A DNA stretch of 64,000 nucleotides. It comes from Methylobacter marinus A45 (lineage in GTDB: Bacteria > Pseudomonadota > Gammaproteobacteria > Methylococcales > Methylomonadaceae). This document shows, piece by piece, positions 38,551-58,959 of the stretch; within the stretch, counting starts at the first letter, position 1, and each line of letters starts with the position of its first letter. The stretch is from positions 564,465-628,464 of the forward strand of contig NZ_KB912877.1 of NCBI RefSeq assembly GCF_000383855.1. Direction: 5' to 3'. The position numbers were made by a program, and so were the translations under genes. The notes under the pieces are model-generated. The model made no database searches and was not told the origin of the DNA. It was given only the letters and a program-made list of their open reading frames with translations.

Positions 38551-39852
38551 CTAACGCGAATGCCGGATTCCATCCCAGGAATAATTCAGAAAAACCGTCA
38601 CGGCGTTAGAATCACTCGTTCCCACAAATAAGTTCCGCGCCTGAAGGTCCGACTGAAAATCCTGATTGTCCTGCTGAAAATCCTGCCAACTGTAAATGTA
38701 GCTGCCTTTGAGCCGCCAGTTTTTCGCGAACTCCCAGGCAATACCCGCGGCTACGGAAAAATAACTGCGATCAAATTGACCGGTCAGATCTCCACTCGGC
38801 TGGCCTTCGATCGATTCACTACGGGTAAAATTACTCGTGAAATCCAGCACAAGATGCCGGGTTAAATGGTACGAATAATTAGCGAAGATTGAGTTGGTTT
38901 GCAGCGTTTGGCCGATGGCGCTTGGGTTAACAGCATTGGAGAAACCGGCGGAGAATTGGCTCAGCCGATCATCATAGCTTAAAGTGATGTTGGCAGCACT
39001 TCCCAAGGACAATGAAGGACTCTGCCCAGACGGAACGTCAGCCGAGTTGCTTCTGGTTTCATCAATCCATATCGGCCCTCCAGCGGCACTCACTGTCCAG
39101 CTGCGATTGATTGTATAATTCGCGCCCAGTTGAAAGCCAAACAGGTTTTGAGCCGAGGCGTCCACCCCCCCGGTATATCGGATGTGAGAAAAATAAAATT
39201 TTCCATTTAAAGAAAGACGTCGACTCCATTCATGATTCCCACCCAGATTGACGGTATAGGTCTCATTGCCACTGAAATTCAAGAAATCATTACTAACACT
39301 TGCATCGATACCGTCAAGTGGAATGCTGTAACTTGTCCTGGAATACGAAGCATCCAGGATCAATTGATCACGAGGAGTCCACTGCCAGACCCATGAAGGT
39401 GCCAGCTGATAGTTATCAGTCTGGCTGTTGGGTAAAAGCAGTCCTGTATCCAGGATTTGTTGGGCATAGGTACAACTAACGGCGTACTCGCCTTTTAAAC
39501 TGAAAACACTGCGTTTGGTCCGATAATCGCTGTTCAGTCTTAGATTGTATTTATCACAATCCCAAAGCGAATCATCATAGCGACGAATGTCCCCTTGGCC
39601 TTCGAAAGCGATATCCAATACCCTGGTTTTTCGGCTGGCTTGTAAGGTTGGCGTCAAAACGTATCCGACAACAGAATCATTACGAACAGGATTCATCGAA
39701 ATGTTGTCATTGTATTCCACCTGTTGGTTCAAGGAACCTTTCAGCATCCATTCGACTGCTGCCGCGTCCTTCCCGAAACCAATGCAGGCCATAACAACTA
39801 ATATGATTTTCCGGCCGCGACACATGTTTTTTGAAAAAAACTCAAGGCACAA
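38551..39852 (-). CDS. Outer-membrane beta-barrel protein of the exopolysaccharide/exosortase locus
   Basis: 433 aa. Signal peptide (about 1-32), then a mature protein with alternating hydrophobic/polar beta-strands and repeated short turns, ending in a strand with C-terminal pattern NAVTVFLNYSWDG. Proteins of this type (EpsL/WbfB-like, and the outer-membrane proteins associated with PEP-CTERM loci) occur beside exopolysaccharide genes. Presumed role: outer-membrane part of export or anchoring. The start overlaps the Wza-like gene end by 11 nt, so the two are coupled. Confidence 0.75.
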   Translation of the reverse strand: MCLEFFSKNMCRGRKIILVVMACIGFGKDAAAVEWMLKGSLNQQVEYNDNISMNPVRNDSVVGYVLTPTLQASRKTRVLDIAFEGQGDIRRYDDSLWDCDKYNLRLNSDYRTKRSVFSLKGEYAVSCTYAQQILDTGLLLPNSQTDNYQLAPSWVWQWTPRDQLILDASYSRTSYSIPLDGIDASVSNDFLNFSGNETYTVNLGGNHEWSRRLSLNGKFYFSHIRYTGGVDASAQNLFGFQLGANYTINRSWTVSAAGGPIWIDETRSNSADVPSGQSPSLSLGSAANITLSYDDRLSQFSAGFSNAVNPSAIGQTLQTNSIFANYSYHLTRHLVLDFTSNFTRSESIEGQPSGDLTGQFDRSYFSVAAGIAWEFAKNWRLKGSYIYSWQDFQQDNQDFQSDLQARNLFVGTSDSNAVTVFLNYSWDGIRHSR

Positions 39853-40441
39853 CGATAGTGTCGCCGCTTTGCAACAATATATTCGATTCTATATTCTCAC
39901 CATCCTCAACTTCACCGTACTTGAAAGGCAAGGATTTGAGCCGACCGTCTGCTTCACGCCTCAGGACCAGTATGCTGTTTTTTTCAGCGAACTCCGTTAA
40001 ACCGCCGGCCATGCCCAAAGCTTGCATCACATCCGTAGGTCTTGCCATCACAAACGCCCCCGGATGGGCAACCTCGCCAGTGACATAAATCATATTGCCG
40101 TCCGCGGCAAGCAGCCTGACGTTTACTTCAGAGTCAGGAATATACTGACTAAGACGCTTTCGCAGCAAGCTGGCCAGATCCTCGGTCGTTTTGCCGGCGG
40201 CGGCCACGTGTCCGATCAGGGGAAAAGAGATGGTGCCATCCGGCAGCACCACAACATCCTGTTTTAGCTTATCCTCTTCCCAAACGGTAATTTCCAGTTT
40301 ATCGCCTGGATTGAGGTGGTAAATCGCGTTTGCCAGGGCAAAAGGCTGAGCTGACAACCAAAGTAAGCAGCCGAGGAACAGCACTAAATGACGGCCTTTA
40401 AAATACGGGAGTGTCAATCTCTTCAAGATGAATGTATTCAT
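39842..40441 (-). CDS. Polysaccharide export protein (Wza/GumB-like)
   Basis: 199 aa. Signal peptide (about 1-39; no lipobox Cys seen, the cleavage region being ALANAIYH), then the poly-export domain (YHLNPGDKLEITVWEEDKLKQDVVVLPDGTISFPLIG), followed by one SLBB domain (YVTGEVAHPGAFVM). It is much shorter than E. coli Wza (379 aa), as is normal for GumB/EpsD-type auxiliary export proteins. It probably forms the periplasmic/outer-membrane channel for the polysaccharide made by the locus. Confidence 0.9.
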   Translation of the reverse strand: MNTFILKRLTLPYFKGRHLVLFLGCLLWLSAQPFALANAIYHLNPGDKLEITVWEEDKLKQDVVVLPDGTISFPLIGHVAAAGKTTEDLASLLRKRLSQYIPDSEVNVRLLAADGNMIYVTGEVAHPGAFVMARPTDVMQALGMAGGLTEFAEKNSILVLRREADGRLKSLPFKYGEVEDGENIESNILLQSGDTIVVP

Positions 40442-40734: not shown

Positions 40735-42426
40735 TCATGACCATAAAGACCATCGCGCCTGCGCCAAAACCCAAATAGCAATCAATGCGTTAGTCGTCAT
40801 ATGCGCAATGACGGCATCGGCCAGCCGCCCTTGGCGGTAAAGAGCCAGGGCATATCCCATTCCCGCTAAAGTCCCCGCAATCCAGCGTTCATGCAATAGC
40901 CCGAACAATATAGATGAAAGTATGAACGAAAACCATGAGAACCGCCCGAGTGGTACATTTTCGAAATCTTTCGAAATCAACTTGCGGATCAAGTAACCGC
41001 GGAAGGCCAGTTCCTCGGCCAGAGGCACGATGATGACCGACCCGAATACACGGAACAGCAGCCAGACCGCTGCCATCTCATCGGCAAGTGCCGCCAAACC
41101 TTGTGATAACGCCGTCTTGCTGCTGTCGACATTTGGCTCCAGCAGCATCCAGATCATGAACACCGCGCCCCCGATGGCCGGAGCCTGCCAGGTCCACCGC
41201 CAACCCAGGCCATTATAAGCCTTGCGGAAATACCAAAGCATGCCAGCGACAGCCACAATACGCATGGGATAGAGGACGTCAAAGCCGCTGGAGGAAGCCG
41301 AGGTCATCATCGTGGCTGCCATCATAACCAATAAAGGCACGAGCAAGGCGGCGGCGAGAGATTTACCGGTTGTAGCAACCGGCAAGTCTGGCCCGGCAAC
41401 GGCAAAAAACCGCATCTTATTCGACAGGGCAATTACGCTTAGCGCAATTACGGTAAACGCTATCCAGCCGGCTTGCGCATGAAAGCCTTGCAAGGCTATT
41501 TCGGGCGACATGGACGTGCCGATCGCGATCAAAAGGGCGATGCGCACGGCGTTGGCTAACCAAATCACGGTTATACCGAGCGGAAAAAGCCAGAAGGAAT
41601 GCGGAAAACGTAATTCTTTACGAAACAGCCAAAGATAAACGGCAAGAAATATAGTGATCAGGGAAATACCTTCGATACCCGAACAAAAATGCGTGATTTC
41701 AACCTGGAAAACAGACGTGCCTAACAGGAATTCTTCTGGCTGGTAGACAAGGTCGGAATATACCCAGCCAAGCATGGAATAGACGAGCTGCAAAGTAGGC
41801 ACGGCCAGGAAATTCCAAAAATTTTCCTGACCCAACAGAGAGGTGTCGTAACGGCTAAGGGTCGCTACGAGTATCCAGGCGCCTAATCCTAACAAGCAGC
41901 CCATGAATAATGCCGCATATTCCTGGCGAATCAATCGCAACCAGAAATATCCTGGGGCTAAAGCCAAGAGCCATGACAACAATTTTGTGCCGGCCAGCAC
42001 AATCCAGCTGATAAACCAGGGCCCCGAAAGACGCGAGGGATTGAGGGGGTCTTCAAATATGAGCTCCGTGGCAAACGCGAATACGGCGAAAGCGAGTACG
42101 TGAACCGCCAACCAAACCAACCAGTGGTATTCTTTTGACTGTTCACGTGCCTTGACAAGAATAGCCTTAAGCCGCGGACTGAGCATCAGGAGACAAGCGC
42201 AGGCAACCCAAAGGCCCGCATGCCAAATCCCTTTCGAAGAATGAAACAGCTTCGCTGACCAATCGGCATCCTCTGCCAGGAAACGCGGTGCCTCATAGCG
42301 GGCTGTTATCGCCACGAGCTCAAATGCCATGAGTTCTAACAGCAATAGCCAGCGAACCGCTAACTGCTTTGCGGCAGCGGACCTGATTTGAAGCGGCGGA
42401 CCGGCGAAATTACACCACATATTCAA
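40735..42426 (-). CDS. xrtE: Exosortase E/CPBP protease fusion (VPEID-CTERM system)
   Basis: 563 aa, about 14-16 membrane helices. The first two-thirds is an exosortase: catalytic Cys248 in THFCSGIEGIS, Arg295 in LANAVRIALLI and His316 in GFHAQAG, the three-residue exosortase set. The C-terminal third (about 355-563) is a CPBP/CAAX-type intramembrane protease with the EExxxR motif EELAFRGYL (Glu471, Glu472, Arg476) and a second motif in FILSSILFGLLHE. A fused exosortase plus CPBP domain is the described exosortase E/protease type that pairs with VPEID-CTERM proteins. The matching substrate is the adjacent gene at 42505-42903. Start TTG at 42426 or ATG at 42420. Confidence 0.88.
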   Translation of the reverse strand: MNMWCNFAGPPLQIRSAAAKQLAVRWLLLLELMAFELVAITARYEAPRFLAEDADWSAKLFHSSKGIWHAGLWVACACLLMLSPRLKAILVKAREQSKEYHWLVWLAVHVLAFAVFAFATELIFEDPLNPSRLSGPWFISWIVLAGTKLLSWLLALAPGYFWLRLIRQEYAALFMGCLLGLGAWILVATLSRYDTSLLGQENFWNFLAVPTLQLVYSMLGWVYSDLVYQPEEFLLGTSVFQVEITHFCSGIEGISLITIFLAVYLWLFRKELRFPHSFWLFPLGITVIWLANAVRIALLIAIGTSMSPEIALQGFHAQAGWIAFTVIALSVIALSNKMRFFAVAGPDLPVATTGKSLAAALLVPLLVMMAATMMTSASSSGFDVLYPMRIVAVAGMLWYFRKAYNGLGWRWTWQAPAIGGAVFMIWMLLEPNVDSSKTALSQGLAALADEMAAVWLLFRVFGSVIIVPLAEELAFRGYLIRKLISKDFENVPLGRFSWFSFILSSILFGLLHERWIAGTLAGMGYALALYRQGRLADAVIAHMTTNALIAIWVLAQARWSLWS

Positions 42427-42504
42427 GCATTATCCGCTCAACAAAGAAAACCGAATCAGAAAACAGTGTTCTGCTCCGGTTTTAATGGTCAACGCCAGGG
42501 AATG

Positions 42505-42903
42505 CTAAGAGCGTCGAGACCGGGACCTTTCGCCTGCCAGCAGTAAAGCGCCTACCAGCAGAGCTATCGCACTGGTTCCAGATGCGGCATCAATTTCGGG
42601 AACGACATCACGAACTCCACCCGGTACAGGTCCGGAACCCACACCTGACCGGTCAGGATCAATTTGCGATAATTGATAACGCCAAACAGCCAACTGCTCC
42701 CTCCAGGCAGCCAGTTGCTCCCTCCAGGCGTCTAGCTGATCTAGCCATGACTGTATAGGTATTGTTTGAGATACCTGGCGTGATGTTGATTGAGAGGATG
42801 AAATCGACGTATTCCGGCTGTTTTCGTTATCTTCTGCCCAAGCATTGCCTGCGGCCAGGAACATAACCATTACACCCGCCAATATCAGTTGCTGAATATT
42901 CAT
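42505..42903 (-). CDS. VPEID-CTERM surface protein, substrate of XrtE
   Basis: 132 aa. Signal peptide 1-23 (ends GNAWA). Low-complexity Ser/Thr/Gln segment 28-48, then four heptads of form x-x-W-x-x-Q-L (51-78) that look like an amphipathic helix. A Gly/Pro/Val-rich stretch follows, then the sorting signal: VPEID at 101-105, membrane helix 110-123 and basic tail. The signal is the tripartite VPEID-CTERM pattern. Expected fate: cleavage near VPEID by the neighbouring exosortase and release or transfer at the cell surface. Strong RBS AAGGAGG 4 nt before the ATG; transcribed into xrtE 78 bp downstream. Confidence 0.9.
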   Translation of the reverse strand: MNIQQLILAGVMVMFLAAGNAWAEDNENSRNTSISSSQSTSRQVSQTIPIQSWLDQLDAWREQLAAWREQLAVWRYQLSQIDPDRSGVGSGPVPGGVRDVVPEIDAASGTSAIALLVGALLLAGERSRSRRS

Positions 42904-43741: not shown

Positions 43742-45337
43742 ATGAACAACTATTTTACAAATACTTCCTTGAGCGGATTGTGCAGGCGCTTTGGGTCGAT
43801 CGGGCTTGCCCTGTTCTCATTCAGTGGCCATTCATTCGCAGGAAGCACAAACCTCGCCTGGGACGCCAGCACTTCGCCCGATATCGGCGGTTATATAGTG
43901 TCTTACGGTCAAAGCAGCGGCCATTACGACTCAAGCATCGATGTCGGTAACAAAAACACCCTCACGGTATCGGGACTGCAAGAGGGTACTCAATATTTTT
44001 TCGGAGTGAAGGCCTACGATTCGGCCCGATCCACCGAAAGCGGCTATTCCAATGAAGTCAGTATGACGGTGCCGGTCACCACAACGACCGGCGGAACCGA
44101 CAATGAAAATGAAGACGGAACCGGCGGAGGAACAGATGGAAGAACCGACGGAGGAACTGGCGTTGGAACGGGCGGCACTACCGAAAGCCCCGGCGGGTCT
44201 ACTGGCGAAAATGCCGGTACAGATTCCGGCAATGACGGCTTGGTGGCAGCCTATGGATTTGAGGAAACCAATGGCAAAACTGTTGTCGATGCCTCGGGCA
44301 ATGGCAACCACGGCACTATCAAGGAGGCCGTCAGAATCTTCAGCGGCCGGTATGGGAAAGCCCTGAAGTTTGATGGCGTAAACGATTGGGTCACTATCGA
44401 AAACAGCGCATCGCTGGCACTTTCAACCGGCATGACCCTCGAAGCATGGGTATACCCGCAATCGCTGACAATTGGCGGAAAAACGGTATTCTTTAAAGAA
44501 ATAGCTGGCGGTAGCGATGATTACAGCCTCTATGCCAATGAAGATGCCAATCTGCCTGTTTCTTATATCAATAATGGAGATTACCGTATTATCTCCGGCC
44601 CCAACCAGTTGCCGGCGAATCAGTGGACGCATCTTGTGGCGACCTACGACGGCCAATATCAACGGCTTTATGTGAACGGCGCCGAAGTGGCCCAGCAGGA
44701 ACAAAAAGGCCTGATTCGCCAATCCGGCGGCGTGTTACGCATCGGTGGAAACAGCATCTGGGGCGAGTACTTCAAAGGCTATATTGATGAGATGCGGATC
44801 TATAATCGAGCCTTGACCGCAACGGAAATCAATAGCAACAAAACAACCGCAATCAGCGTTTCCAATCCGCCTCAGTTTGTCATGGGCGACCGGAATGAAG
44901 AACCTTGGGTCGAAAACAGACCGCAAGGCGTTGCACAAGCTTACCAAACGGTACCCGAGAAGGCCGGCATGGTAACGGATGTACAGGTCTATCTGGATGC
45001 CAGCACAACCGCGACACAGTTGGCTGCCGGTATTTATTCCGATAATAATGGCCATCCCGGAAAGCTTATCGGCAGAGGTACATTGAAAACGCTTAAACCT
45101 GATGCATGGAACTCGGTATCCATTGCCAGCGCCTCTGTTACCGCGAACCAGCCTTATTGGATTGCGATACTGGGGCTGAATGGAGAAATCGGATTTCTGA
45201 ACCAAGTGGGTTCAGGAACAGGCGTGATAGAGCAGAGTTCCGGCCGCAGTCTGAGAGACTTGCCCGGCACATGGACTGGTTCGGGCGATGGCTATAAAGC
45301 CAATGCGTCGATGTCGGTCTATGGGAATGGCTATTGA
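43742..45337 (+). CDS. Secreted FN3-LamG protein
   Basis: 531 aa. Signal peptide ends about residue 33 (GHSFAG). A fibronectin type III domain (about 35-110, starting TNLAWDASTSPDIGGYIVSYG) is followed by a Gly/Thr/Glu-rich linker (about 115-165). A LamG/concanavalin-like domain follows (about 168-375), with GLVAAYGFEETNGKTVVDASGNGNHGT and DEMRIYNRALTATEI. A further beta-rich domain reaches the C-terminus. It has no C-terminal sorting signal. It probably binds carbohydrate at the cell surface, in the matrix built by the surrounding locus (inference). Confidence 0.82.
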   Translation: MNNYFTNTSLSGLCRRFGSIGLALFSFSGHSFAGSTNLAWDASTSPDIGGYIVSYGQSSGHYDSSIDVGNKNTLTVSGLQEGTQYFFGVKAYDSARSTESGYSNEVSMTVPVTTTTGGTDNENEDGTGGGTDGRTDGGTGVGTGGTTESPGGSTGENAGTDSGNDGLVAAYGFEETNGKTVVDASGNGNHGTIKEAVRIFSGRYGKALKFDGVNDWVTIENSASLALSTGMTLEAWVYPQSLTIGGKTVFFKEIAGGSDDYSLYANEDANLPVSYINNGDYRIISGPNQLPANQWTHLVATYDGQYQRLYVNGAEVAQQEQKGLIRQSGGVLRIGGNSIWGEYFKGYIDEMRIYNRALTATEINSNKTTAISVSNPPQFVMGDRNEEPWVENRPQGVAQAYQTVPEKAGMVTDVQVYLDASTTATQLAAGIYSDNNGHPGKLIGRGTLKTLKPDAWNSVSIASASVTANQPYWIAILGLNGEIGFLNQVGSGTGVIEQSSGRSLRDLPGTWTGSGDGYKANASMSVYGNGY

Positions 45338-45772
45338 CTGAATCACTGACGGCTTAAGTGGCATAATGATGGAGCGTGCATCGCCCGGTGCGATGTCCGT
45401 TCCGTCTGCCGCCCGAAGTCGGGTGCATGCCGGTTTAACGTTTAGCATGAAGAAGTCAGCATTCTCTGTCTCAGCATCATTGACACGCACATCGAGATGA
45501 ACCCAATGAATACGCGGATAACCATTTGCGCTTGCCATTTCCAAGACCACTTAACCGGTAATGGAGCTGATTTTTATCGCTTTATCGGTCCGGATTCACT
45601 AAAAGCCAAAGGCTAATAATCAAGGAAAGCGCGATGATCCTGCATTATCAACTCCCTAACTTTCAATCAACTACCGACGTGATCATGAATAGCGCATTAT
45701 TGCCGTTTCATGATCAACCGTTGTAAGTAATAAACAAACGAGCTCGTGCAACAAAGAGCCAGGAAAAATTCT
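45338..45772. other. Non-coding spacer between FN3-LamG and first beta-helix gene
   Basis: 435 bp without a supported gene. A weak inverted repeat around CATCGC/GCGATG is near 45378-45398. It likely contains a promoter for the beta-helix gene; no clear consensus element was seen. Confidence 0.35.
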
Positions 45773-47035
45773 GTGAATATGTCAATCTTTCGAATCCGCT
45801 GCCTTACTGTATTAGCAATAGGTATGGCAGGTGTAACCAATCAATCATGGGCGGCAACTGTCAGTGCCGAAAGTTGCTCGCAAACCCATGTATCCAGTGC
45901 AATTTCATCGGCGACTGCCGGCGACACGGTGCAAGTACCCGCCGGTTCGTGCTCATGGTCCGGTTTGTCGATCAGCAAGGCAATCCATCTTAAAGGGGCT
46001 GGCGTTGGCCAGACAAAAATCACATTGACCGGCAACAATACAATTACCAAACAGGCCGCGGGGACTATCCGTGTTTCCGGATTCAGCTTTTCAAAAAGCG
46101 GCGGCGGCAATGGGAGCAAGGGCTGGACGATCGGCGGTTCATGGCAAAATACTGAACCCGTGGTCATCCAGGACAATGCCTTTACGATAAGCAACTCCGG
46201 TTTGTTCAGCCTGAATGTGGCCGGCGGGGTCATTATCGCCGGAAACTCATTTACCGGCGAGCAGGATGATTCTTTTATTCAGCCCAAAGACTCCCAGGAT
46301 TCCGGAAATTCGTGGGGCACGGCCGATACCATGGGGAGTAAGGATACGACAGGAAAGCGGAATCACTATATCGAAAACAATACTTTTTATGGCGGCGCAA
46401 ACCAAGGCATTGATTGCGATGATTCCACTCGCTGCGTTTATAGATACAACACCCTGACGTATTCATCGTTTAACAGCCACGGGTTGGCAACATCTTCTCA
46501 AGGCGTCAGGCATTTCGAGGTTTATAACAATACCTGGAAACATGACGGCGGCACCAGCCAGATCGCCAATCAGAACTGGGCTGTCTGGATTCGCGGCGGG
46601 ACCGGCGTTATTTTTAATAATCAGATAGCAAATCTTGCCGGGTCTTACTGGGGCAATAAAGCAGAGCTTCACTTCTCTATTCGCGGAGCGGAAGATGCCA
46701 GGCCGCAAGGCAGTTGCGAGAATGTAAAATATCCGGTTCCACGGCAGCTTGGCCAGAACTATGATGGAAGCAAGTATTTTACCGACCCTATTTATATATG
46801 GGGTAATACGGGAACGGTAGCAATTCAGGACGGATGGAGATGGGGAAACCCTTGCGGACACAACTGGGAGACCTATTTCAAGTGGGGACGCGATGCCGTC
46901 AATGGCTCGAGCAAGCCCGGCTACACTCCTTACACCTACCCTCATCCGTTGACCCAAACAACGGGCTCGACAACGGGGCCAACAACGGGACCGACGAACG
47001 AAATGCAACCTCCGTCCAATCTGCGCATCCAATAA
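45773..47035 (+). CDS. Secreted right-handed parallel beta-helix protein
   Basis: About 420 aa from GTG at 45773 (ATG at 45779 is equally possible; AGGAAA lies 6-7 nt before the GTG). Signal peptide ends near NQSWA. The body has repeated short strands and turns ending in Asn/Gly, as in parallel beta-helix proteins (pectate-lyase fold), with VIIAGNSF, NHYIENNTFYGG and FEVYNNTWKHDGG. Such folds bind or cleave acidic polysaccharides. A Thr/Gly/Pro repeat linker and a terminal PPSNLRIQ motif end the protein. Catalytic residues could not be assigned. Confidence 0.75.
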   Translation: MNMSIFRIRCLTVLAIGMAGVTNQSWAATVSAESCSQTHVSSAISSATAGDTVQVPAGSCSWSGLSISKAIHLKGAGVGQTKITLTGNNTITKQAAGTIRVSGFSFSKSGGGNGSKGWTIGGSWQNTEPVVIQDNAFTISNSGLFSLNVAGGVIIAGNSFTGEQDDSFIQPKDSQDSGNSWGTADTMGSKDTTGKRNHYIENNTFYGGANQGIDCDDSTRCVYRYNTLTYSSFNSHGLATSSQGVRHFEVYNNTWKHDGGTSQIANQNWAVWIRGGTGVIFNNQIANLAGSYWGNKAELHFSIRGAEDARPQGSCENVKYPVPRQLGQNYDGSKYFTDPIYIWGNTGTVAIQDGWRWGNPCGHNWETYFKWGRDAVNGSSKPGYTPYTYPHPLTQTTGSTTGPTTGPTNEMQPPSNLRIQ

Positions 47036-47039
47036 GCGT

Positions 47040-47202
47040 TTAGGAACGGGAATGAAATAAAACCCGCGATTGAGGCAGGATTTCTGTTCCTGTTCAAGGC
47101 GCGCAAACAGGCGCATAGCAAGCTATGTAACTGTTTGCGCAACGCTGAAGAGGGACAGAAAGACAAGTCAACTGCGGGAGTTATAAAATTCACGTTCCTT
47201 AG
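47040..47202. repeat. MITE-like element, family A, copy 2
   Basis: About 163 bp, about 90% identical to 30403-30566 and in the same orientation. Inverted ends and central hairpin are conserved. The inner stem here reads CATAGC/GCTATG where copy 1 has CATGGC/GCCATG, so both sides of one base pair changed together. It begins 5 nt after the stop of the beta-helix gene. Confidence 0.75.
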
Positions 47203-47437
47203 GATTTGGCCGTCAATCAGTTCCTGTTTAAACACAGGTTGTGCCGCCTGGAGCGCCTGCTCCTGGCCGGCACAACCTATGCCAGGCCCTCATTTCAGGA
47301 AGCCGCTCTAGCCAGATCCTTATAAATTCCAGCCTTTAGGAGCCAGGAAAGCCGGCGGCTTCCCTGGCCCGGATTTCTGTACCTGCCGGGCTTAGCCGAT
47401 TCAGCGCGTTACGCCCTGAATTGGAGGGATCGACAAA

Positions 47438-48916
47438 ATGACCGCATCCAAAACCTTACTGGCATTCATACTGTTAACCTATGATCCAGCCGCCAATGCC
47501 GCTGTTTACTATATTGATCAGACAGGCGGAAACGACGGCAATAGCGGCACCAGCCCAAGCAGTCCCTGGAAGCATTCTCCGGGAATGGCGGCATACACCG
47601 GATCAGGCCAGTTAAAAGCGGGCGATACTGTCTACTTTGACAGGGACGACAACTGGACGGTTACCGGCAGTCCCCAGGGACTTTTTCTGGCAGGCGGCGT
47701 CAGTTATATCGGCGACCAATGGGAAGCCGATTCCGGGACGACCGGATACAGGGCAAAAATAACGGCGGGCCATGATTTCAACGATAATGGCGTTATCAGA
47801 TTTAGAGATCATCCCACTATTCAGACTCTCTTCAAGGGATTTGAAGTGGATGTGAATAACATGTCCGCGAATGGTATCGACATCAATCATGGTTTTTGGA
47901 GCTTGATGAACGGAGCAACAAAGAAGGTTGAAAACGTCGAAGTCCATCATGTTTTCACTGAGCAGTCGAAAGGAGAATATAAATATGGCATCGCGATGAG
48001 TAATTTCGGCGGCAGCGGCGGCATTCTCGAGAATGTCGAAATCATCAATTGCTCGGTTCATGACATCGGCAGAGACGCCATCGTCCTATATCCTAACGAC
48101 GATCCGAATTCAAGAATAGGAAACATTACCGTCCGGGGATGTAACGTATATAACACCGGACTAGACCGGGATTATGCCGCGGGAAATGGAGGCCATGGAT
48201 TCGTCATCAAGGGCTGGGTCTATAACTCGACGATAGAGAACAACTATGTCCACAATGTGAACTCGTCGGCCATATTTGTCAGCGGACCTGAAAATAATGG
48301 CAAACAGCGTGGCGCTGATAATGTTACCGTCAAAAACAATATTCTTACGACCCCGTCCAATAACGGCATTGTCCGACTCTACAAAAATGGCGCCAAGCAG
48401 CTGAAATTTCATGGCAATATCCTATACGACAACAACACCAGCGGCGCCTTCAATTTAAGCGAAAATGCCGGAACCCTCGACCTCCTCGTCTACAACAACA
48501 CGTTCGTCAATACCTTCATCGATCTGGGCAGACATTCGTCAACAGTGAACACCTTCGAGTTCAGGAATAACATTGTGCAATATGCCGGCAACCCGCTACG
48601 GAATGCTAGCGCCATACAGAGCCGGTCGAACAACTTACTGGTCAGCGCCGACCCCGGCTTTAAGGATACGAGCAAAAAACCCACCGGCTTCATCGGCGAT
48701 TACGGGACAGATCTTCGCCCCAACACCGATGGCTTGTCATTGAATGCCGGAAGCAGCGCGATAGACGGAGGAACAGCCCTTGCCGGCGCCTTCGCTGACA
48801 GCATCAATAGCATTCCACGCCCGCAAGGGGCGGCCTGGGATATAGGGGCTTATGAATACGGTTCCGCCGGGGCAATGCCGATGGCTCCGCCACCGAATCT
48901 TCGAATTATTCCCTAA
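47438..48916 (+). CDS. Secreted right-handed parallel beta-helix protein
   Basis: 492 aa. Signal peptide ends near ANA (about residue 22); RBS GGAGGG is 9 nt upstream. The N-terminal YYIDQTGGNDGNSGTSPSSPWK is the start typical of exported right-handed beta-helix proteins. Repeats of NxxVxxN strands follow (EIINCSVHDIGRDAIVL, TVRGCNVYNTG, STIENNYVHNVNSSAIFV). The C-terminal domain has INSIPRPQGAAWDIGAYEYG, characteristic of DUF-type beta-helix proteins, and ends PPPNLRIIP. Likely polysaccharide-binding or -modifying; activity unproven. It is paralogous in style, not in close sequence, to the previous gene. Confidence 0.78.
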   Translation: MTASKTLLAFILLTYDPAANAAVYYIDQTGGNDGNSGTSPSSPWKHSPGMAAYTGSGQLKAGDTVYFDRDDNWTVTGSPQGLFLAGGVSYIGDQWEADSGTTGYRAKITAGHDFNDNGVIRFRDHPTIQTLFKGFEVDVNNMSANGIDINHGFWSLMNGATKKVENVEVHHVFTEQSKGEYKYGIAMSNFGGSGGILENVEIINCSVHDIGRDAIVLYPNDDPNSRIGNITVRGCNVYNTGLDRDYAAGNGGHGFVIKGWVYNSTIENNYVHNVNSSAIFVSGPENNGKQRGADNVTVKNNILTTPSNNGIVRLYKNGAKQLKFHGNILYDNNTSGAFNLSENAGTLDLLVYNNTFVNTFIDLGRHSSTVNTFEFRNNIVQYAGNPLRNASAIQSRSNNLLVSADPGFKDTSKKPTGFIGDYGTDLRPNTDGLSLNAGSSAIDGGTALAGAFADSINSIPRPQGAAWDIGAYEYGSAGAMPMAPPPNLRIIP

Positions 48917-49050: not shown

Positions 49051-50430
49051 TCACGACGTTTTTTTATAGCGGAATTGACTGTAGCGGAATCGTCTCTGAT
49101 GCTGAACGACTTGCTCGGTACGCGTTTGCAGCGGCCTTGGGTACTCAATGGCGATTATATGGAAAACCGTCCAGACAATGGAAACGCCTTTAAAAGTGGC
49201 TTCGGTATAGTTATAGAAAATAATGGCAAACAAAAAGGCGAGCCGCAGGCGGGCAAAGTCGAAATCACTCAACAGATCGATACGGATCTTGCGGAAAGTC
49301 GATATGAGCAGTCCGACCAATAGAAACACCCCGATGATTCCCGTGTTCAGGTACGTTTCAATATAGCCGTTATGCGCCTGATTTGGCTGCCACCACCATT
49401 TCGCCCAGAGAATATCGAGTCGCTCACCCAACCAGAAGCTTTCAAACCCCTCGCCGAACAGGGGATGACTAGCCAGGGCCAGGCAATCCTCCCAAACCTC
49501 GGTCCGGTCGGTCAACGTCGGATTCTTCCCTAGCAACTTCACGACAGTATCATACACATCGAAGGTAAACTCAGCCCAGACAGCCACGAGGCCCGCGACA
49601 ACCACATAGGTTCCAATAAATCGCTTGTTGATGATCGGCATGCCTATCATACTGATCGTGGCCGCCCCGATCAGGAGGGTGACGAGAGAAGTTGAACTTT
49701 GGGCCATGTGCAACAGCCATCCGATTATGCAGAGAAACCCGGTGCTGAGAAGGAGTTCCTCTCGCCTGATACGGGAATCCTCAATGCGTCGCGCCGTTAA
49801 CAAATTCCACAAGAAGAACAAGCCAAATAACATGCACCCTAAGCCGAGTTCGCTCTTGGTAAGCATGGCCCCGTTGTTGGTGGCCCCGCCCACCCAGGCG
49901 TCAAAGCCTCTGCCGTACTGAGGGTAATATTTGATGAGCAGAACCGAGAGCGGCATGATGATATAAGCGCATCGCTTCATAACCGTCCTGAAAGCATTAA
50001 CAGGATCGGGATCGGAGAGAATGATCAAGGCCATCACCGGATGGCCGAGGATTTTGATATAGCGCTTGAAGGCGACAAACGGAAAATCAGACCATGCGAT
50101 GGCAAGAAAACTATAAATAAAAAATGCCGCCAACCAGGGATTGTTTCGCAGGATATCGCCGACGACCACACGCCGGAGAGCGAGGATGCGAATGCCCGCC
50201 ATGATCAGTATTGAAAAATAGAGCGCATCGACAGGACTTCCTTCGGCCATGCTGACGCTTTGCCCTGACCCGAGGTTGATCCACTGAGAGACGAACCGCG
50301 TTGTCGTAATCGTCATCCATGACACCGGCAGCCACAATGCCGCACTGACTTCGCCCTGCCTGTGAAAATCCCGGCGAAAGAGAACGAAAATGAATGAGAC
50401 TGTCAATAAAGTGGCTAAGGATGGCGGCAT
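49051..50430 (-). CDS. O-antigen ligase/Wzy-like polysaccharide polymerase
   Basis: 459 aa, about ten to twelve hydrophobic helices with a large periplasmic-type loop (about 330-400, AEFTFDVYDTVVKLLGKNPTLTDRTEVW, and a GEGFESFWLG segment). The pattern TDRTEVWEDC...PLFGEGF...HNGYIETYLNTGIIG is the WaaL/Wzy (O-antigen_lig) domain signature. It would polymerise lipid-linked repeat units or ligate glycan. It is the last gene of the leftward exopolysaccharide series. Confidence 0.85.
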   Translation of the reverse strand: MPPSLATLLTVSFIFVLFRRDFHRQGEVSAALWLPVSWMTITTTRFVSQWINLGSGQSVSMAEGSPVDALYFSILIMAGIRILALRRVVVGDILRNNPWLAAFFIYSFLAIAWSDFPFVAFKRYIKILGHPVMALIILSDPDPVNAFRTVMKRCAYIIMPLSVLLIKYYPQYGRGFDAWVGGATNNGAMLTKSELGLGCMLFGLFFLWNLLTARRIEDSRIRREELLLSTGFLCIIGWLLHMAQSSTSLVTLLIGAATISMIGMPIINKRFIGTYVVVAGLVAVWAEFTFDVYDTVVKLLGKNPTLTDRTEVWEDCLALASHPLFGEGFESFWLGERLDILWAKWWWQPNQAHNGYIETYLNTGIIGVFLLVGLLISTFRKIRIDLLSDFDFARLRLAFLFAIIFYNYTEATFKGVSIVWTVFHIIAIEYPRPLQTRTEQVVQHQRRFRYSQFRYKKTS

Positions 50431-50494
50431 AATCTATGAATATGAAGTTCAATAATCCCAATGCAAAGGCGTCCGGTTTTTTCAATTGCCCCTG

Positions 50495-52318
50495 TCAGCG
50501 GCTGTTCCGGAAGGCTCCGAAGAACCCCGAATCAGAAGGCGCTCGGTCGCTTCCAGCGTCAGTATGGCATGAATCTCCCTGATGTAGTTTTTTCGCCCCG
50601 CCGCTATGGTCCGCGGCAATCGATGCCAGGAATTGAGCATTCCAATAGGGCGACTGCCGCGTCTGTGCAGCGTTTAACACCTCACCGATATAGGCGGCCA
50701 ACTCTCGCCTGAACCAGCTTCTGTAAGGCAGAAACTTATGCAGCCCGAGCAGCCCGAATTTCGAAAGAGCCCCAATGAGCGGGTCCAATGGTGAGAGAGT
50801 ATGCGGCAGCCCTTCCTTGTGCAGATAATCGAGTTTGAAGGTAAATTCGGAAAAAAGCCGCCTTGCCATGAAAGAAGGACCGCGGCCGCCCCATATTACC
50901 CCCCGATCAGTGGGGATTCCGCCAAGCGCCGGGTTGTTCTCATGCACGAAGCGCAAGGCGGACCGGGGAGACAGGCGGGCGCTTGCCGGCGCTCGAAACG
51001 CGAGCGCGACGACTTCGTTATCAAGATAAGGAGTGCGAAAAGTCATTTGAGACCTGCCGGCGGCAAGCGTGCCGAACAGGTTCCAGGGGATTTCCTGAAA
51101 AGCCGCAAAGGCGACCGGATGCGCTTTTTGCTTATCAAACACGCGCTGCACGGATGACTCAATGAGTCGGTTAAAGTCCGCATCGATCAGTGCCGCCGGA
51201 AAATTGGCCGGTTTGAACGTCGACATGCTTCTGAGAATTTCGCTGCCGAAATTTCCGGTCAGGCGAATCGGAGACAGCGCCCGGCCCTGTTCATTGAAGT
51301 AGATTTCGTGAGCCGTCAAAGCGCCGGCACAGCCGTCCGTCACGAACACCGTCCGGTCGACATGGCGCCCGAAGTCGGTTAAAAAATCCGTGCCGATGCG
51401 CAGAACGCGGTGTTCGAGACCGCAAACCTGAGCCACGCGGGCCGCCAGCCGAACATCCAGCGTGTCTTCCGTTAAGCCTGAAAACGTGTAACAGGTCGGC
51501 TTGAACGCATTCCCGTGGATGCCGGCCATGATCATTCGGGTATCCAGCCCGCCGGTGAGCGATATGCCGGTCAGGGAATCCGAGGACACGTATTGAGGCA
51601 GTATCCGGGCGAAGGTCTCCAAAAACGCCCGTTCGAAAGCCTCCTCAGTTAAAGCCGCTTGCGATTCCCATTGTTCGGGGCGGAAATATTGCTCTTTACG
51701 ATTGCCGGTATGTTTGCCAAAAGTCCAAACGGAACCGCCGGGCAGAAAGCGCAGATCGCTAAACAACGTTCGTCCGGCGAGGGTGCAGCCAAACGTCAGG
51801 AACTGTGCCACCCCTTCATCGTCGAAGGCCCGCAGCGCAGGCACAACCCGCAGCAGCGCCTTCGCCTCGCTGGCGAAAAAAACCGTGCCGTCACCGTCTT
51901 CATAAACGTATATCCGTTCGATGCCGTAACGATCATTGAAAAGCAAGGCACGCTTCTGTTGACGGTCTATCAGCAAACCGCTGAAAAGCCCGTTGAGCTG
52001 CTCGACAAAGCGCTCACCCTCGGCCTCATACCGGCGCGGCAACCGATCCACATCGGCCCCGGCCCGCGTGTCCGGAGAGGGAAAGAAGCACTCGCCGGAA
52101 AACAGCAGGGTTACAGCGTCGCGATCACCGTGCGCGGACTGACGGGCAGCGAAGGAACCGTCATGCGCCACCCAGCCGCCATAGACGCCGATTTCCGGCG
52201 CGAAGCAGGTCCCCGATGCGTAAAACGGCTCATATTTCATGCTTTTGATCATCGCGTCCACAAGGCGCTGACACTCCTCGGCGGGTCGACGACTGACTAT
52301 TCCGGCTATTCCAGGCAT
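50495..52318 (-). CDS. Asparagine synthase-related protein lacking the glutaminase cysteine
   Basis: 607 aa. N-terminal amidotransferase-like domain starts MPGIAGI: the catalytic Cys2 of class II glutaminases is replaced by Pro. RBS GGGGAATACA precedes this Met, so the start is secure. The C-terminal synthetase domain keeps a PP-loop, SLTGGLDTRM, instead of SGGLDS. Without Cys2 it cannot use glutamine but could use ammonia or have been recruited for another ATP-dependent modification. Homologues of this type are common in exopolysaccharide loci. 64 bp upstream of the ligase gene; function in glycan amidation is inferred. Confidence 0.85.
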   Translation of the reverse strand: MPGIAGIVSRRPAEECQRLVDAMIKSMKYEPFYASGTCFAPEIGVYGGWVAHDGSFAARQSAHGDRDAVTLLFSGECFFPSPDTRAGADVDRLPRRYEAEGERFVEQLNGLFSGLLIDRQQKRALLFNDRYGIERIYVYEDGDGTVFFASEAKALLRVVPALRAFDDEGVAQFLTFGCTLAGRTLFSDLRFLPGGSVWTFGKHTGNRKEQYFRPEQWESQAALTEEAFERAFLETFARILPQYVSSDSLTGISLTGGLDTRMIMAGIHGNAFKPTCYTFSGLTEDTLDVRLAARVAQVCGLEHRVLRIGTDFLTDFGRHVDRTVFVTDGCAGALTAHEIYFNEQGRALSPIRLTGNFGSEILRSMSTFKPANFPAALIDADFNRLIESSVQRVFDKQKAHPVAFAAFQEIPWNLFGTLAAGRSQMTFRTPYLDNEVVALAFRAPASARLSPRSALRFVHENNPALGGIPTDRGVIWGGRGPSFMARRLFSEFTFKLDYLHKEGLPHTLSPLDPLIGALSKFGLLGLHKFLPYRSWFRRELAAYIGEVLNAAQTRQSPYWNAQFLASIAADHSGGAKKLHQGDSCHTDAGSDRAPSDSGFFGAFRNSR

Positions 52319-52398
52319 TGTATTCCCCGTGCTTGTTTAATTAAAAAACCAAAGGTTGGGTCCGCGAAGCCGGCCGGATACAAAATCGCGCAGCCTGC

Positions 52399-53352
52399 TC
52401 ATTTCTGGCGCAATCCGTTCCATATTCCTCTGAGCTGCTTGAGCGGTTTTTTGACGGATTGCGGCAACATCGCCCGCCATCCGCGATGCGCGCCGCACTT
52501 CAACACGAACTCACCCTTCCAGGTCAACGGAATGTAGTAGCGAGGCATGCTCACTTTTTGAAAACCGCAGCGCCGCTTGAATTCGGCGAGCGAATCATCA
52601 CTCCAGAAAACATAGATCAAATAATCCAGCTTTCGCGCCGCGCATACTTCCACGGCTTTGGCAATCAGAGCGTTATTGGGTGATTTGTCGCGATGCTTGA
52701 GGCTGGAGATGATTTGCCCCGTGAGGCCGAACCGGCCGGCATCGCCCAGCATCATGAACCCGATCATTTCACCTTGATAATAGGCGCCGATCATGTGTTC
52801 CCGGAACAGGTAGCGGGAAAACTGGCGCTTGACCGTTTCGAAGTCCTTGCCGTAATGCCAGAATTTCCGGCCTTGACGGATCGGCGCTTCGTTAAAGATA
52901 GCGGTCATGCCATGCACGAAGTCGTCGTCATACACTGTTTCCCTGACCACCACGCCATCCTTTTCGGCTTTTCTGATCTGACTGCGCACTCGCGACTTGA
53001 TTTGATGGCTCCACCAGTGGTCATAAGTCGTAATCGGGATCACGGCCAAATCTTCCGATTCCTGATAATAGGCGTACCTGGGCTCGACATCCGGCATCCG
53101 TTGCCAAAAAGTGAAAAGATCGGGTTTGAAGCCGGGATTTTCCTGTAACGCCCTGGCCACTGCTTGCGGCTCGTCAATATCCTCATACCACTCATCCTCG
53201 AGACGGACGACAGTGAGCAGGCCTCGCTCGATCGAAAACGTCTGCTTGCCGATTTTAATGTGCTCAGTCTGAGCGGGTCTGCCGTTTATCAGCGTCTCTT
53301 TGGTGAAAATCCGGCTTGCGGACGGCAGGGATGCGGCCATGTTTTTTGACAT
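52399..53352 (-). CDS. FemAB/GNAT-like acyltransferase
   Basis: 317 aa. RBS GGAGGATTGA precedes the ATG. The C-terminal half (about 150-270) resembles a GNAT fold with an RSQIRKAEKDGVVVRE segment like that of FemAB-type enzymes, a GAYYQGEMIGFMMLG strand and SPNNALIAKAVEVCAARKLDYLIYVFW. FemAB-like proteins often accompany exosortase-linked polysaccharide loci, where they may attach amino acids or acyl groups to sugars. No substrate can be named. Confidence 0.65.
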   Translation of the reverse strand: MSKNMAASLPSASRIFTKETLINGRPAQTEHIKIGKQTFSIERGLLTVVRLEDEWYEDIDEPQAVARALQENPGFKPDLFTFWQRMPDVEPRYAYYQESEDLAVIPITTYDHWWSHQIKSRVRSQIRKAEKDGVVVRETVYDDDFVHGMTAIFNEAPIRQGRKFWHYGKDFETVKRQFSRYLFREHMIGAYYQGEMIGFMMLGDAGRFGLTGQIISSLKHRDKSPNNALIAKAVEVCAARKLDYLIYVFWSDDSLAEFKRRCGFQKVSMPRYYIPLTWKGEFVLKCGAHRGWRAMLPQSVKKPLKQLRGIWNGLRQK

Positions 53353-53401
53353 TCAATCCTCCTGTTAAACCGTGAAAAACGCAGCCCTGGCTGCGCACCG
53401 A

Positions 53402-54289
53402 TCACCTGCCGCGCAGGTTCAAGGGCGCCGAGAGAAGCTGCCGAAGTCTGCCGAGCTGCTCTTGTCGATGGAATTTCATGAGTTCCTCGGAAACCGGTCT
53501 TTCAAAGCGGGTCAGCCAACACCAGAAATAGCCGCACAGCAACGCCATGCCGCCGACCAGGTAGGGTTTCTTAAGAGTTTGAAAAGCCCCCCGAAAGAGT
53601 TCCCAAAGCGGATGACCGCCGAGGAAATAATCTTTTTTCCCGTAATTAAAGCGGGACATAAGCTCGTTGCTGCCGGCTGTTCCCATTTTTCGATGGTGAT
53701 GGAAGACCCGGTCCGCGAAGGAGTAAGTCATCCACCCCTTCATGCGCGCCGTCGTTACCGCCACCCAATCGATACCGCCGCCTTTTATCGGCACGTAGCC
53801 GCCGATATCCTCGAAACAGGCCCTGCGGAAAAGCTGACACTGCCCGTTGACATGATGAACATTGATATAGCTGTCCGCATAGGAATGAAAACCGCCTTCG
53901 ATGTAATGGGTTCCGGCGACGCCCAGGTTGGGCATCTCCTCAAACTTCCCCAGGAGATAGGCGAAGAAGTCATTGTCGAAGGAAATGTCCGCATCAATGT
54001 TGCCGATGACATCGAATGACAGGTCTTTGACCCGTTCATAGCCGGCATTGAACGCCTGCACTTTGGCGGCGAAGTTGCGCTCCTTCCGCTCCGGAAGCCT
54101 GACCAGTTCCAGCCATTTTCTGCCGTCCAGGTATTTTTTGACGATCTCATCCGTAGCGTCCGTGGAACCGTCGCTCACGATCACCCAGCGCTTGGGCGGC
54201 ACCGTCTGCTGAATGACGGATTGGATTGTCTTTTCGATAAAAGCGGCTTCGTTGTGGGCCGGTGTAATCAATACATATTCAATCGTCAT
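53402..54289 (-). CDS. Family 2 glycosyltransferase
   Basis: 295 aa. GT-A fold with ITPAHNEAAFIEKTIQSVIQQT (6-27), VSDGSTDATDEI, and the DXD-like IGNIDADISFDNDFF (Mg/UDP-binding). A C-terminal hydrophobic segment (PYLVGGMALLCGYFWCWL) suggests membrane association. It transfers a sugar from a nucleotide-activated donor to the growing repeat unit; the donor is unknown. Confidence 0.88.
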   Translation of the reverse strand: MTIEYVLITPAHNEAAFIEKTIQSVIQQTVPPKRWVIVSDGSTDATDEIVKKYLDGRKWLELVRLPERKERNFAAKVQAFNAGYERVKDLSFDVIGNIDADISFDNDFFAYLLGKFEEMPNLGVAGTHYIEGGFHSYADSYINVHHVNGQCQLFRRACFEDIGGYVPIKGGGIDWVAVTTARMKGWMTYSFADRVFHHHRKMGTAGSNELMSRFNYGKKDYFLGGHPLWELFRGAFQTLKKPYLVGGMALLCGYFWCWLTRFERPVSEELMKFHRQEQLGRLRQLLSAPLNLRGR

Positions 54290-54364
54290 AAATGTTGCCT
54301 CCTGTTCCAGTATCGTCGGCTTTGCCGCACGGCCCTTTATGCCGCGAACATGACAGTCCGCCGT

Positions 54365-56233: not shown

Positions 56234-56320
56234 ATCAGGAAATCCACAGATGCCATGAGTCGGAATGCAGCATACGCGCCGGCGGAACGCGGCAAACTGC
56301 CCAACCCTTATAAAAATCAA

Positions 56321-57541
56321 TCATGCCGCCCGCTCTCCTTCCTTCAGGGAATAAAGCAGAAAACAGAGACTCCTGAATAACTGAGATTGCGCCCAGCGGT
56401 GCATGGGGACATCGTCCCAGCCGAGCAGCAGTCGCCTCGACCGGAAGGAACCGTCGGGCTTTTGCCAATTATCCAGCAAGTCATTCACGGCAGCCTGCAC
56501 ACGATCGTCGAGTTCAGCGGATTGGCCTTTCAGCAGAACGCCCAGGTTTATGCACTCGGCGTAGTCATAAAGCTCCTGGCGATACACCGTCAATCGCGGC
56601 GCGCGCGAGAATGGTTTTGGCAATCCGTTTTGGTCGAACAGGTGGCGCACGTAGTAATCCGTACCCGCCTTGATCGCCTTGCGGCAGCCTTCGTGGCTGG
56701 TCAATTGTTCGATCTTGGCCAGAGCCTTGAGCACGAAACAGGTGTGGAAGTGATCGACGAAATCCCTGACCCCGTCGACGGAGTAATACCAGGAGCCGTC
56801 GGGCTGCTGTGCTTCAAGAACGAAGTTAAGATTGCGCTCGGCAATGCGCCGATAGTCATCGCGCCCGAATTGCAGCGCCGCGCTGATGAGCAAAAAAGCC
56901 CGGTAAGCGCTGGCGTTGATTACTCCGCCTTCCGAATCGAACGGGTTATAACCCGCCGTGGCAACGTCCACGGAGATTTCCCTGTCCGTTATGTCGTTGG
57001 CCGCATGCTCCGCCGCGGAATACATGGTCTCAAGCCACCGGTCCTCGCCATCTATCTCATGCACGTAAGAGAAAGCTTCGTACACATACGGGGTCGTTGT
57101 GATCAGCGGCGTGCCGGTCGCCATCACGCCGGTCCTTGTGACCCAATCGAAGGGGTATCCCCAGCCAAAATGGCTGAATCCCGGAGACCTTGTCTGTTCG
57201 AGTACATGTAAAAAATGGACCGCACGATCATAGTATGCTTGCTGCCCTGTCAACCGTGCCAGCAATGCGAAGCCCATGGCGTAGTGGGCATCGGCAATGG
57301 GAAAGCGCTGTTTTTTCCAAAAAAACCGCCGTGCCGACGGAATAAAGGCCTCACAGAAAATAATCGGCGCCACAGCCAGGGTCCCTAGCGCCGGTTTGCG
57401 GTAGTACAGCGCTTTCGCTCCGCCGCCGACGGGGCCTGCGAAGAAACTCTGGTGATCATGCGAGGTCTCCCCGTAATCATCGAGCCAGTCCATGAAACGG
57501 TGAAGGGCTGAATGAATGGTATCGATTGACTGACTCTTCAT
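56321..57541 (-). CDS. Alpha/alpha-toroid protein of the polysaccharide locus (VpsJ-like)
   Basis: 406 aa, no signal peptide. Tandem helical hairpins with repeated aromatic/Trp-rich segments: ALLARLTGQQAYYDRAVHFLHVLEQ, LEAQQPDGSWYYSVDGVRDFVDHFHTCFVLKAL and LLDNWQKPDGSFRSRRLLLGWDDVPMHRWAQSQ. The QxPDGSW-type motifs resemble terpenoid-cyclase/prenyltransferase and glycosidase alpha-toroids. VpsJ-like proteins of this fold occur in Vibrio polysaccharide loci. No catalytic residues were identified. Confidence 0.6.
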   Translation of the reverse strand: MKSQSIDTIHSALHRFMDWLDDYGETSHDHQSFFAGPVGGGAKALYYRKPALGTLAVAPIIFCEAFIPSARRFFWKKQRFPIADAHYAMGFALLARLTGQQAYYDRAVHFLHVLEQTRSPGFSHFGWGYPFDWVTRTGVMATGTPLITTTPYVYEAFSYVHEIDGEDRWLETMYSAAEHAANDITDREISVDVATAGYNPFDSEGGVINASAYRAFLLISAALQFGRDDYRRIAERNLNFVLEAQQPDGSWYYSVDGVRDFVDHFHTCFVLKALAKIEQLTSHEGCRKAIKAGTDYYVRHLFDQNGLPKPFSRAPRLTVYRQELYDYAECINLGVLLKGQSAELDDRVQAAVNDLLDNWQKPDGSFRSRRLLLGWDDVPMHRWAQSQLFRSLCFLLYSLKEGERAA

Positions 57542-58930: not shown

Positions 58931-58959
58931 CTGCCCGCCTTAATCGCCCCGCATTTTGT

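Follow-up and report, generated by a model that had tools for sequence, protein, structure and literature searches.

The window analysed here is a 64,000-nucleotide stretch of Methylobacter marinus A45 (contig NZ_KB912877.1, positions 564,465 to 628,464), and coordinates given without a locus handle are counted from its first letter. On its minus strand, positions 40735-42426 encode an exosortase fused to a CPBP/Rce1-type glutamate protease, and both active sites are intact. The next gene upstream encodes a precursor with a C-terminal VPEID tail. Together the two genes form a complete exosortase E/VPEID-CTERM cassette, which would probably work by sorting and a second cut, the tail being recognised and the exported body serving as a variable spacer. 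By its profile matches the pair belongs to a system already catalogued in NCBIfam. A first-pass annotation had named the enzyme and its neighbour, placing Cys248, Arg295, His316 and an EELAFR motif in one 563-residue polypeptide and a VPEID motif, membrane helix and basic tail at the end of the upstream product; both identities are borne out by curated models, and the residues lie at the positions it gave. The features of the pair are:

40735..42426, minus strand: exosortase E/CPBP protease fusion (XrtE), 563 aa (TIGR04162, TIGR03008, AlphaFold2 model)
41683..41685, minus strand: Cys248, presumed exosortase nucleophile, invariant in 60/60 aligned enzymes, in a loop read as periplasmic
41542..41544, minus strand: Arg295 of the exosortase triad, invariant in 60/60
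41479..41481, minus strand: His316 of the exosortase triad, invariant in 60/60
40738..41373, minus strand: CPBP (Rce1-like) glutamate intramembrane protease half, residues 352-563 (PF02517, structure model)
41011..41016, minus strand: Glu471-Glu472 of the EExxxR motif, invariant in 60/60
42505..42903, minus strand: VPEID-CTERM precursor, presumed substrate, 132 aa (TIGR04161)
42511..42603, minus strand: VPEID motif, membrane helix and basic tail (TIGR04161 match, kept in same-genus orthologues)
42835..42903, minus strand: signal peptide of the precursor, residues 1-23 (MNIQ...NAWA; rough rule and by eye)

The XrtE reading frame has a TTG start, with an ATG two codons further in. Its product scores 240.6 bits against TIGR04162 (exosortase E/protease, VPEID-CTERM system; curated cut-off 150) over positions 47-515 of the 516 in the model, and it also passes TIGR03008 (161.9 bits, cut-off 81.05), the exosortase/archaeosortase superfamily signature TIGR04178 (57.5 bits, cut-off 23) and the CPBP family PF02517 (56.3 bits, gathering threshold 22.4). 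The general model PF09721 (Exosortase_EpsH) gives 20.5 bits, below its gathering threshold of 25.7, while the more specific exosortase models are passed. Two myxosortase family models are missed by a wide margin (NF040914, 25.8 bits against 100; NF033192, 28.3 against 75). All three CPBP motifs, EExxxR, FxxxH and HxxxN, are found in the protease half, the EELAFR sequence supplying E471, E472 and R476. In an alignment of 60 enzymes, which joins the window's XrtE to the enzymes from 59 of the 80 named loci, residues C248, R295, H316, E471, E472, R476, F508, H512, H542 and N546 are all invariant. The loci are titled Methylococcaceae, other Gamma-, Beta- and Alphaproteobacteria, Acidobacteria, Planctomycetes, Myxococcales and others, so that several phyla are covered. 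The triad and the EExxxR residues are likewise invariant in 23 aligned members from the family to which the window's genome belongs. The invariance of both catalytic sets in 60/60 enzymes suggests that both halves are kept under selection.

An AlphaFold2 model of XrtE has a pLDDT of 90.5 and a pTM of 0.83. The sign of the mean loop charge, taken over the 60 sequences, alternates along most of the chain. The loop that carries Cys248 has a net charge of -2.77 per sequence and is read as periplasmic; R295 and H316 lie near the outer ends of their helices. Helix 201-220 is flanked by negative loops on both sides and is read as lying at the outer surface. Residues E471/E472 and H542/N546 would lie towards the cytosolic half of the membrane, as placed by residue counting only. 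When the protease half was modelled by itself (pLDDT 94.1), its best structural rows were SpdC (6u0o; Z 7.6, 133 aligned residues, 4.1 A) and Rce1 (4cad; Z 6.6, 174 aligned residues, 5.5 A), with the third row at Z 4.8. All rows are under the Z that is counted as clear; the SpdC and Rce1 values are inconclusive alone and agree with the Pfam match and the motifs. Foldseek returned no match at E ≤0.001 for the whole model or for the protease half, and no solved structure was matched by sequence at E 1 with the XrtE protein or with two profiles.

The precursor gene lies upstream of the XrtE gene on the same strand, with a gap of 78 bp, and its start is preceded by AAGGAGG. TIGR04161 (VPEID-CTERM) matches residues 101-131 of the product at 56.6 bits (cut-off 33). 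Starts and signal-peptide cuts, here and below, were placed by a rough rule that uses a hydropathy scale and cleavage preferences, and some are off by a few residues. By this rule the precursor consists of a 23-residue signal peptide, 78 low-complexity residues, V followed by PEID, a hydrophobic helix and RSRSRRS. The body carries a WREQLAAWREQ-type repeat, which includes two 21-bp DNA copies. From the motif onward, 27-28 of 31 residues are identical between the window and three same-genus orthologues. In the two orthologues where the parts were scored apart, the signal peptide retains 16/23 and 15/23 identical residues and the body 19/66 and 15/67 aligned residues; in the third pair the body count takes in most of the signal peptide. 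For scale, the neighbouring Wza-like protein is 80-81% and the enzyme 66-71% identical over the same relatives. The body, being the least conserved part in these comparisons, appears to be a spacer. In the closest orthologue pair (G024/G025) body and tail evolve alike, and the looseness of the body is visible only at larger distance.

The window's genome (4.99 Mb, 96.67% complete) contains a single convincing VPEID tail. TIGR04161 has one match over cut-off and no other better than E 2.15; a broader tail model built from 44 tails has one convincing match (E 9.6e-14, well clear of chance), the next best being at E 0.44. The one-substrate arrangement put forward in the first-pass annotation thus stands for this genome, and the alternative of many extra substrates elsewhere was rejected, each model giving one real match. 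The same genome has three further exosortase-family genes: an XrtD (577.7 bits against 400), an XrtK (63 bits against 55), and a gene that passes only general cut-offs (TIGR02602, 125.8 bits against 105.55) and falls short of XrtA (141.4 against 208). It also has six PEP-CTERM matches. Because other exosortases and PEP-CTERM tags exist here, yet only one VPEID tail, the XrtE/VPEID pairing is therefore taken to be dedicated on these model matches. Elsewhere in this genome (L008 1120-3175, near 2.088 Mb of G000:C1) the exosortase K gene adjoins one for a VWA protein that is related to marine sortase targets, below the family cut-off, and ends in MPEPEFYW...KRLRKGQ; the two are perhaps another single-target pair.

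Enzyme and tail occur together across related genomes. Among 237 genomes of the same family the enzyme is over cut-off in 23, with weaker matches in six more, and the broader model finds a tail in 26: all 23 and three of the six. In these three the weak enzyme match is a 66-aa frame (G057), lies at a contig end (G086), or has its halves in different frames (G165). The other three weak-match genomes (G013, G026 and G050) have no tail by the broader model, nor has any of the 208 family genomes without an enzyme match. TIGR04161 is over cut-off in 11 of the 237 genomes (17 at E 0.01), compared with 26 for the broader model; the A3 tail set includes tails from some of the family genomes later searched, which flatters the sensitivity of the family count. 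The 26 genomes carry one tail in 16 cases, two in five, three in one, four in two, seven in one and eight in one. A single substrate is therefore not the rule, ten of the 26 having two to eight tails. The fairer test is a phylum-wide sample, although the enzyme is over cut-off in only four of its 398 genomes; all four have a tail. At most three enzyme and 20 tail candidates were scored per genome, and within that limit none of the 36 genomes with only weaker enzyme matches has a tail, and one of the other 358 (G520) has a partial match, to positions 11-32 and without the motif, in an 800-aa frame.

The association also extends to gene order. All open reading frames (ORFs) were searched in 105 enzyme loci (80 named and 25 others, the window included and some contigs counted twice). 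The tail model matched 115 ORFs in 84 of the 105 loci, corresponding to 109 distinct proteins. Among the named loci, 63 of 80 carry a tail; the nearest tail ORF is at most 500 bp from the enzyme gene in 62 of these 63 and on the same strand in 61, in 53 of which it lies upstream, as in the window. The Pro-Glu pair was required in the seeds and in the motif position, and its invariance is by construction. The helix is conserved as well, with Leu at motif +13 in 101/109 tails and Ala at +10 in 85/109. Some enzyme copies are irregular. In L189 (G165:C161), on a draft contig, the exosortase and protease halves are in different frames exactly at the domain junction, which may be a frameshift in the draft contig or a natural split. 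The partial copies of G136 and G086 are at contig ends. The contig that carries exosortase E in L141 bears the title of a Klebsiella pneumoniae metagenome-assembled genome, a bin that is suspected to be misassigned.

Many of the presumed substrates are very small. The rough rule kept 107 precursors, 104 of them with a predicted signal peptide; the number of residues between the predicted cut and the motif has a median of 13 and is ten or fewer in 43/104. When only named loci are counted, 40 of 80 precursors keep ten or fewer, and these are spread over 25 of 58 loci. A count that does without the rule gives 24 of 109 distinct proteins with at most 30 residues before the motif even in the longest frame, which is about the length of a signal peptide. 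One example is the 51-aa precursor MNRLLSLSLLALAVTFTAGATSVPEIDPASSVNAIALVGGALLVLRNARRK of L123; there and in L095 inspection by eye gives 3-4 exported residues where the rough rule gives 9-10. By the same rule the exported part is about 4 residues in L088 (Aquisphaera insulae) and about 15 in L131 (Noviherbaspirillum soli). Precursors of 51-60 aa with 3-10 exported residues occur in loci titled Acidobacteria, Alphaproteobacteria, Gammaproteobacteria and Planctomycetes. Some loci hold two to four tandem tail paralogues with differing short peptides, and L083, L105, L124 and L139 have arrays of three to four tail proteins with very similar tags and differing exported peptides of about 5-26 residues. 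In paralogue pairs of 6, 7 and 26 codons, the peptides show 1/0, 1/1 and 4/9 synonymous/non-synonymous codons, too few and too mixed for a selection test.

The smallest presumed exosortase substrates in this analysis are two 42-aa, VPEFD-tailed proteins without a predicted signal peptide (L096 9720-9848 and L127 71-199), both with AAGGAG ribosome sites. They differ by 14 synonymous and two non-synonymous changes (dN/dS about 0.03), the pattern that a real, selected protein would be expected to show. For L071, the missing signal peptide may reflect a wrong start. Substrate size is also seen without cuts being placed. Tail-bearing frames in the family genomes have a median length of 105 aa, and 24/52 are under 100 aa; for PEP-CTERM frames the median is 254 aa and 1/65 is under 100 aa (PF07589; 65 matches in 14 of the 23 enzyme-bearing genomes searched). 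PF07589 catches only part of the PEP-CTERM proteins, 22% of instances according to the 2006 paper (PMC1569441), and the length yardstick rests on the better-matching ones. G178 and G182 are exceptions: they have seven and eight tails, and 14 of these 15 sit on frames of 174-384 aa. Since many partners keep few exported residues, the anchoring of a folded protein is unlikely to be the family's common role. The first-pass annotation had proposed the pair as a candidate for surface anchoring or processing; this fits the window and is unlikely as the general job.

In the window, the cassette is followed by two genes in the same orientation:

39842..40441, minus strand: Wza-like polysaccharide export protein (PF02563, 85.3 bits; synteny in relatives)
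38551..39852, minus strand: outer-membrane beta-barrel-like protein, BBP2_2 (PF10082, 37.6 bits, over gathering; synteny)

The Wza-like gene lies 293 bp downstream of XrtE, and the beta-barrel gene overlaps it by 11 bp. The Wza-like product scores 122.7 bits against TIGR03027, the export protein of XrtA/PEP-CTERM loci (cut-off 180), and the beta-barrel product 38.7 bits against TIGR03016, the corresponding outer-membrane protein (cut-off 90.85); by these scores the two are related to, but outside, those families. Wzy-like, glycosyltransferase-like and asparagine-synthase-like genes lie at 49051-63994. The exopolysaccharide setting that had been noted for the window is thus present. Within this region, at 62524-63994 on the minus strand, two glycosyltransferase-like frames that adjoin and closely resemble each other, the second of them close to the end of the window, are probably a recent tandem duplication. 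The plus strand opposite the cassette, at 43742-48916, encodes three secreted-looking proteins. One combines FN3 with LamG domains and is found again near the cassette of relatives, at about 52-69% identity; another has a choice-of-anchor Q domain, and one matches no family.

The linkage to Wza and the beta barrel holds among close relatives. Seventeen related loci were searched, and all but L193 contain an enzyme match; eight of these 16 show enzyme, Wza and beta barrel in the window's order, and the other eight do not. An oxidoreductase-like gene of 398 aa (so named by eye), which the window does not have, stands between enzyme and Wza in several of the eight. For other groups, 38 named loci outside Methylococcaceae supplied 148 nearest neighbours, of which 76 were chosen, usually one per side and with very long ones dropped, and 25 of the 111 families found are considered. 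Polysaccharide-type families are few among them (glycosyltransferase family 2 in two, epimerase in two, sugar transferase in one). A conserved polysaccharide operon as the general setting was rejected outside close relatives, there being no such theme among the 76.

The only family seen in more than two of these neighbours, among the 25 considered, is the fatty-acid hydroxylase PF04116, in 7/76. By clustering, the hydroxylase is present in 10/80 named loci, with 11 proteins in total, and each of the eight that were checked is PF04116:

L081 11876-12733: hydroxylase gene
L083 11184-11975: hydroxylase gene
L084 11441-12265: hydroxylase gene
L100 8142-8999: hydroxylase gene
L105 7523-8386: hydroxylase gene
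L124 6068-6964: hydroxylase gene
L138 11649-12503: hydroxylase gene
L139 3427-4311 and 4923-5756: two hydroxylase genes
L143 7864-8853: hydroxylase gene
L112 15975-16913: hydroxylase gene further off, 4.9 kb away

In L083 and L084 the gene is 22-26 bp behind the enzyme gene. About 0.5 would be expected in the 1.23 Mb of locus DNA, as estimated from 168 PF04116 matches in 120 genomes (0.41 per Mb over the 113 genomes with listed sizes); the ten loci are partly dependent, five being Alphaproteobacteria with similar gene order. The hydroxylase is a possible lipid-modifying partner of the cassette in several phyla; the nearest one listed in the window's genome is about 125 kb away. Histidine-kinase genes lie 13-83 bp from exosortase E in L100 (11469-12728), L127 (2071-3489) and L139 (8152-9351), the first two identified by Pfam and the third by clustering. 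The L127 kinase is on the same strand as exosortase E and has a MASE1 domain.

These features suggest the following course for the reaction. Sec would export the precursor and signal peptidase would remove its N-terminus, leaving the remainder held in the inner membrane by the VPEID tail, N-out/C-in. The exosortase half, with its Cys/Arg/His triad facing the periplasm, would form a Cys acyl-enzyme in cutting at or close to the Pro-Glu motif and would hand the new C-terminus to an amine acceptor of the envelope, lipid or glycan. The CPBP half would then cut the membrane-embedded leftover, or would prime the substrate, so that one polypeptide could finish the whole reaction. The tail would be the recognised part and the exported body a variable spacer, ranging from a few residues up to several hundred; in this clade the body is of low complexity (78 residues here) and is encoded beside polysaccharide-export genes. 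Because it is made next to such genes, the body most likely tethers exopolysaccharide or the outer surface here, judging from this setting. A second cleavage by the protease half, as the first-pass annotation suggested, is plausible. A CPBP protease alone can carry out C-terminal sorting, myxosortase cleaving a C-terminal tag (PMC11980579). Other precedents are the lipid attached at the new C-terminus by archaeosortase A, for which the authors of PMC7157517 propose archaetidylethanolamine as the attacking amine, and the role of cyanoexosortase B in adhesion to polysaccharide, a knockout in Nostoc affecting adhesion (PMC12188702).

Several observations weigh against this scheme. There is no recognisable tail in 17 of the 80 named loci within the DNA covered, and at least six of the tail-less loci (L087, L098, L099, L112, L117 and L137) are flanked by over 9 kb of sequence in either direction; contig ends therefore do not explain the missing tail there. 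The linkage to polysaccharide genes is not general. A few loop charges break strict alternation, the short loops 483-498 (-0.32) and 512-515 (+0.22) being weakly opposite in sign. The CPBP half could, by analogy, make the first cut instead; myxosortase, itself a CPBP enzyme, reportedly acts at a motif after the exported domain (PMC11980579).

It is possible, though on balance doubtful, that the cassette instead performs ordinary surface-protein sorting and exposes an adhesin-like substrate on the cell or within the polysaccharide, in the way suggested for PEP-CTERM proteins. The polysaccharide setting of the window, the Nostoc adhesion phenotype (PMC12188702) and the longer frames of the seven- and eight-tail genomes all point that way, but such sorting fits poorly with the short tail frames, with the precursors that keep ten or fewer residues and with a body less conserved than any other part when the window is compared with its same-genus orthologues. 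Those short precursors raise the possibility, itself rather unlikely, that the cassette makes a peptide or lipopeptide, a very short exported product possibly with a C-terminal lipid, for which the rest of the precursor is a delivery device. Precursors of this kind in four groups, some as tandem paralogues, the purifying selection on the 42-aa precursor and the excess of hydroxylase genes near the cassette argue for it. Yet the short peptides differ between genera, the window's precursor has a sizeable body and a distant hydroxylase, and no receptor or exporter family recurs beside the cassette, sensor kinases in a few loci apart. In a wider form, to be held only tentatively and with little expectation, exosortase E would at root be a maker of ribosomal peptides or lipopeptides that joins a few residues to an envelope amine, while the protease disposes of the tag and larger bodies are elaborations. 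The envelope amine would then probably be a lipid, and the window's larger body one such elaboration.

The conservation of the helix, which matches that of the motif, and the little else that body-less precursors would leave could also mean that the leftover helix or the uncut mini-protein is the functional part, for instance a small regulator of the export machinery whose level the enzyme sets. A recognition signal for the enzyme would predict equal helix conservation, however, and this explanation appears improbable. More doubtful still is that only one half works, the other being a scaffold, whether this is the CPBP half, as in SpdC, or the exosortase half. SpdC is a non-proteolytic partner of SagB, and it is the best structural row of the CPBP half; a relaxed scaffold would not be expected to keep every residue of both active sites in all 60 enzymes. 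Sorting with a second cut, on a recognised tail and a variable body, is the reading preferred here.

The window departs in nothing found from the exosortase E/VPEID-CTERM system as defined by TIGR04162 and TIGR04161: both genes are over cut-off, adjacent, and the enzyme is a fusion. The archaeosortase A/PGF-CTERM system is not known to include a fused protease, and its substrates are large. Archaeosortase A is a related Cys enzyme, archaeal, for which lipid attachment at the new C-terminus is described (PMC7157517). The XrtA/PEP-CTERM exopolysaccharide system (PMC1569441) has a similar tripartite tail, the exosortase triad and, in this clade, the polysaccharide setting, but here the motif is VPEID rather than PEP, the protease is fused and the bodies are often minimal. 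PEP-CTERM proteins have a median of eight per genome in that paper, against one to eight tails here, with one in most of the tail-bearing genomes. Myxosortase/MYXO-CTERM and MrtJ/JDVT-CTERM share a CPBP protease acting on a C-terminal tag, and MrtJ is also part of a two-gene cassette with a single neighbouring target; they are without an exosortase half and the MYXO-CTERM tag has an invariant Cys (PMC11980579), and XrtE scores 28.3 bits against the MrtJ model, below its cut-off of 75.

In the part of the literature covered, no publication on exosortase E/VPEID-CTERM was found by title or abstract start, and we could not find, within the same coverage, a prior description of how minimal many substrates are, of the range of tails that extends past TIGR04161 or of the hydroxylase linkage. 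We know of no determination of the acceptor to which bacterial exosortases join their substrates. A study from 2025 on a single bacterial exosortase reports that it never detected any peptide from the tag region (PMC12188702). Natural substrates that shrink to 42-60 residues are small enough for intact-mass analysis and chemical synthesis, and with two separately inactivatable sites in one enzyme the acceptor and the division of labour could be read directly. The window presents an intact two-in-one membrane enzyme beside a single small presumed substrate in a methane-oxidising family, and the tag-sized partners in other phyla could ease testing of the enzyme's chemistry.

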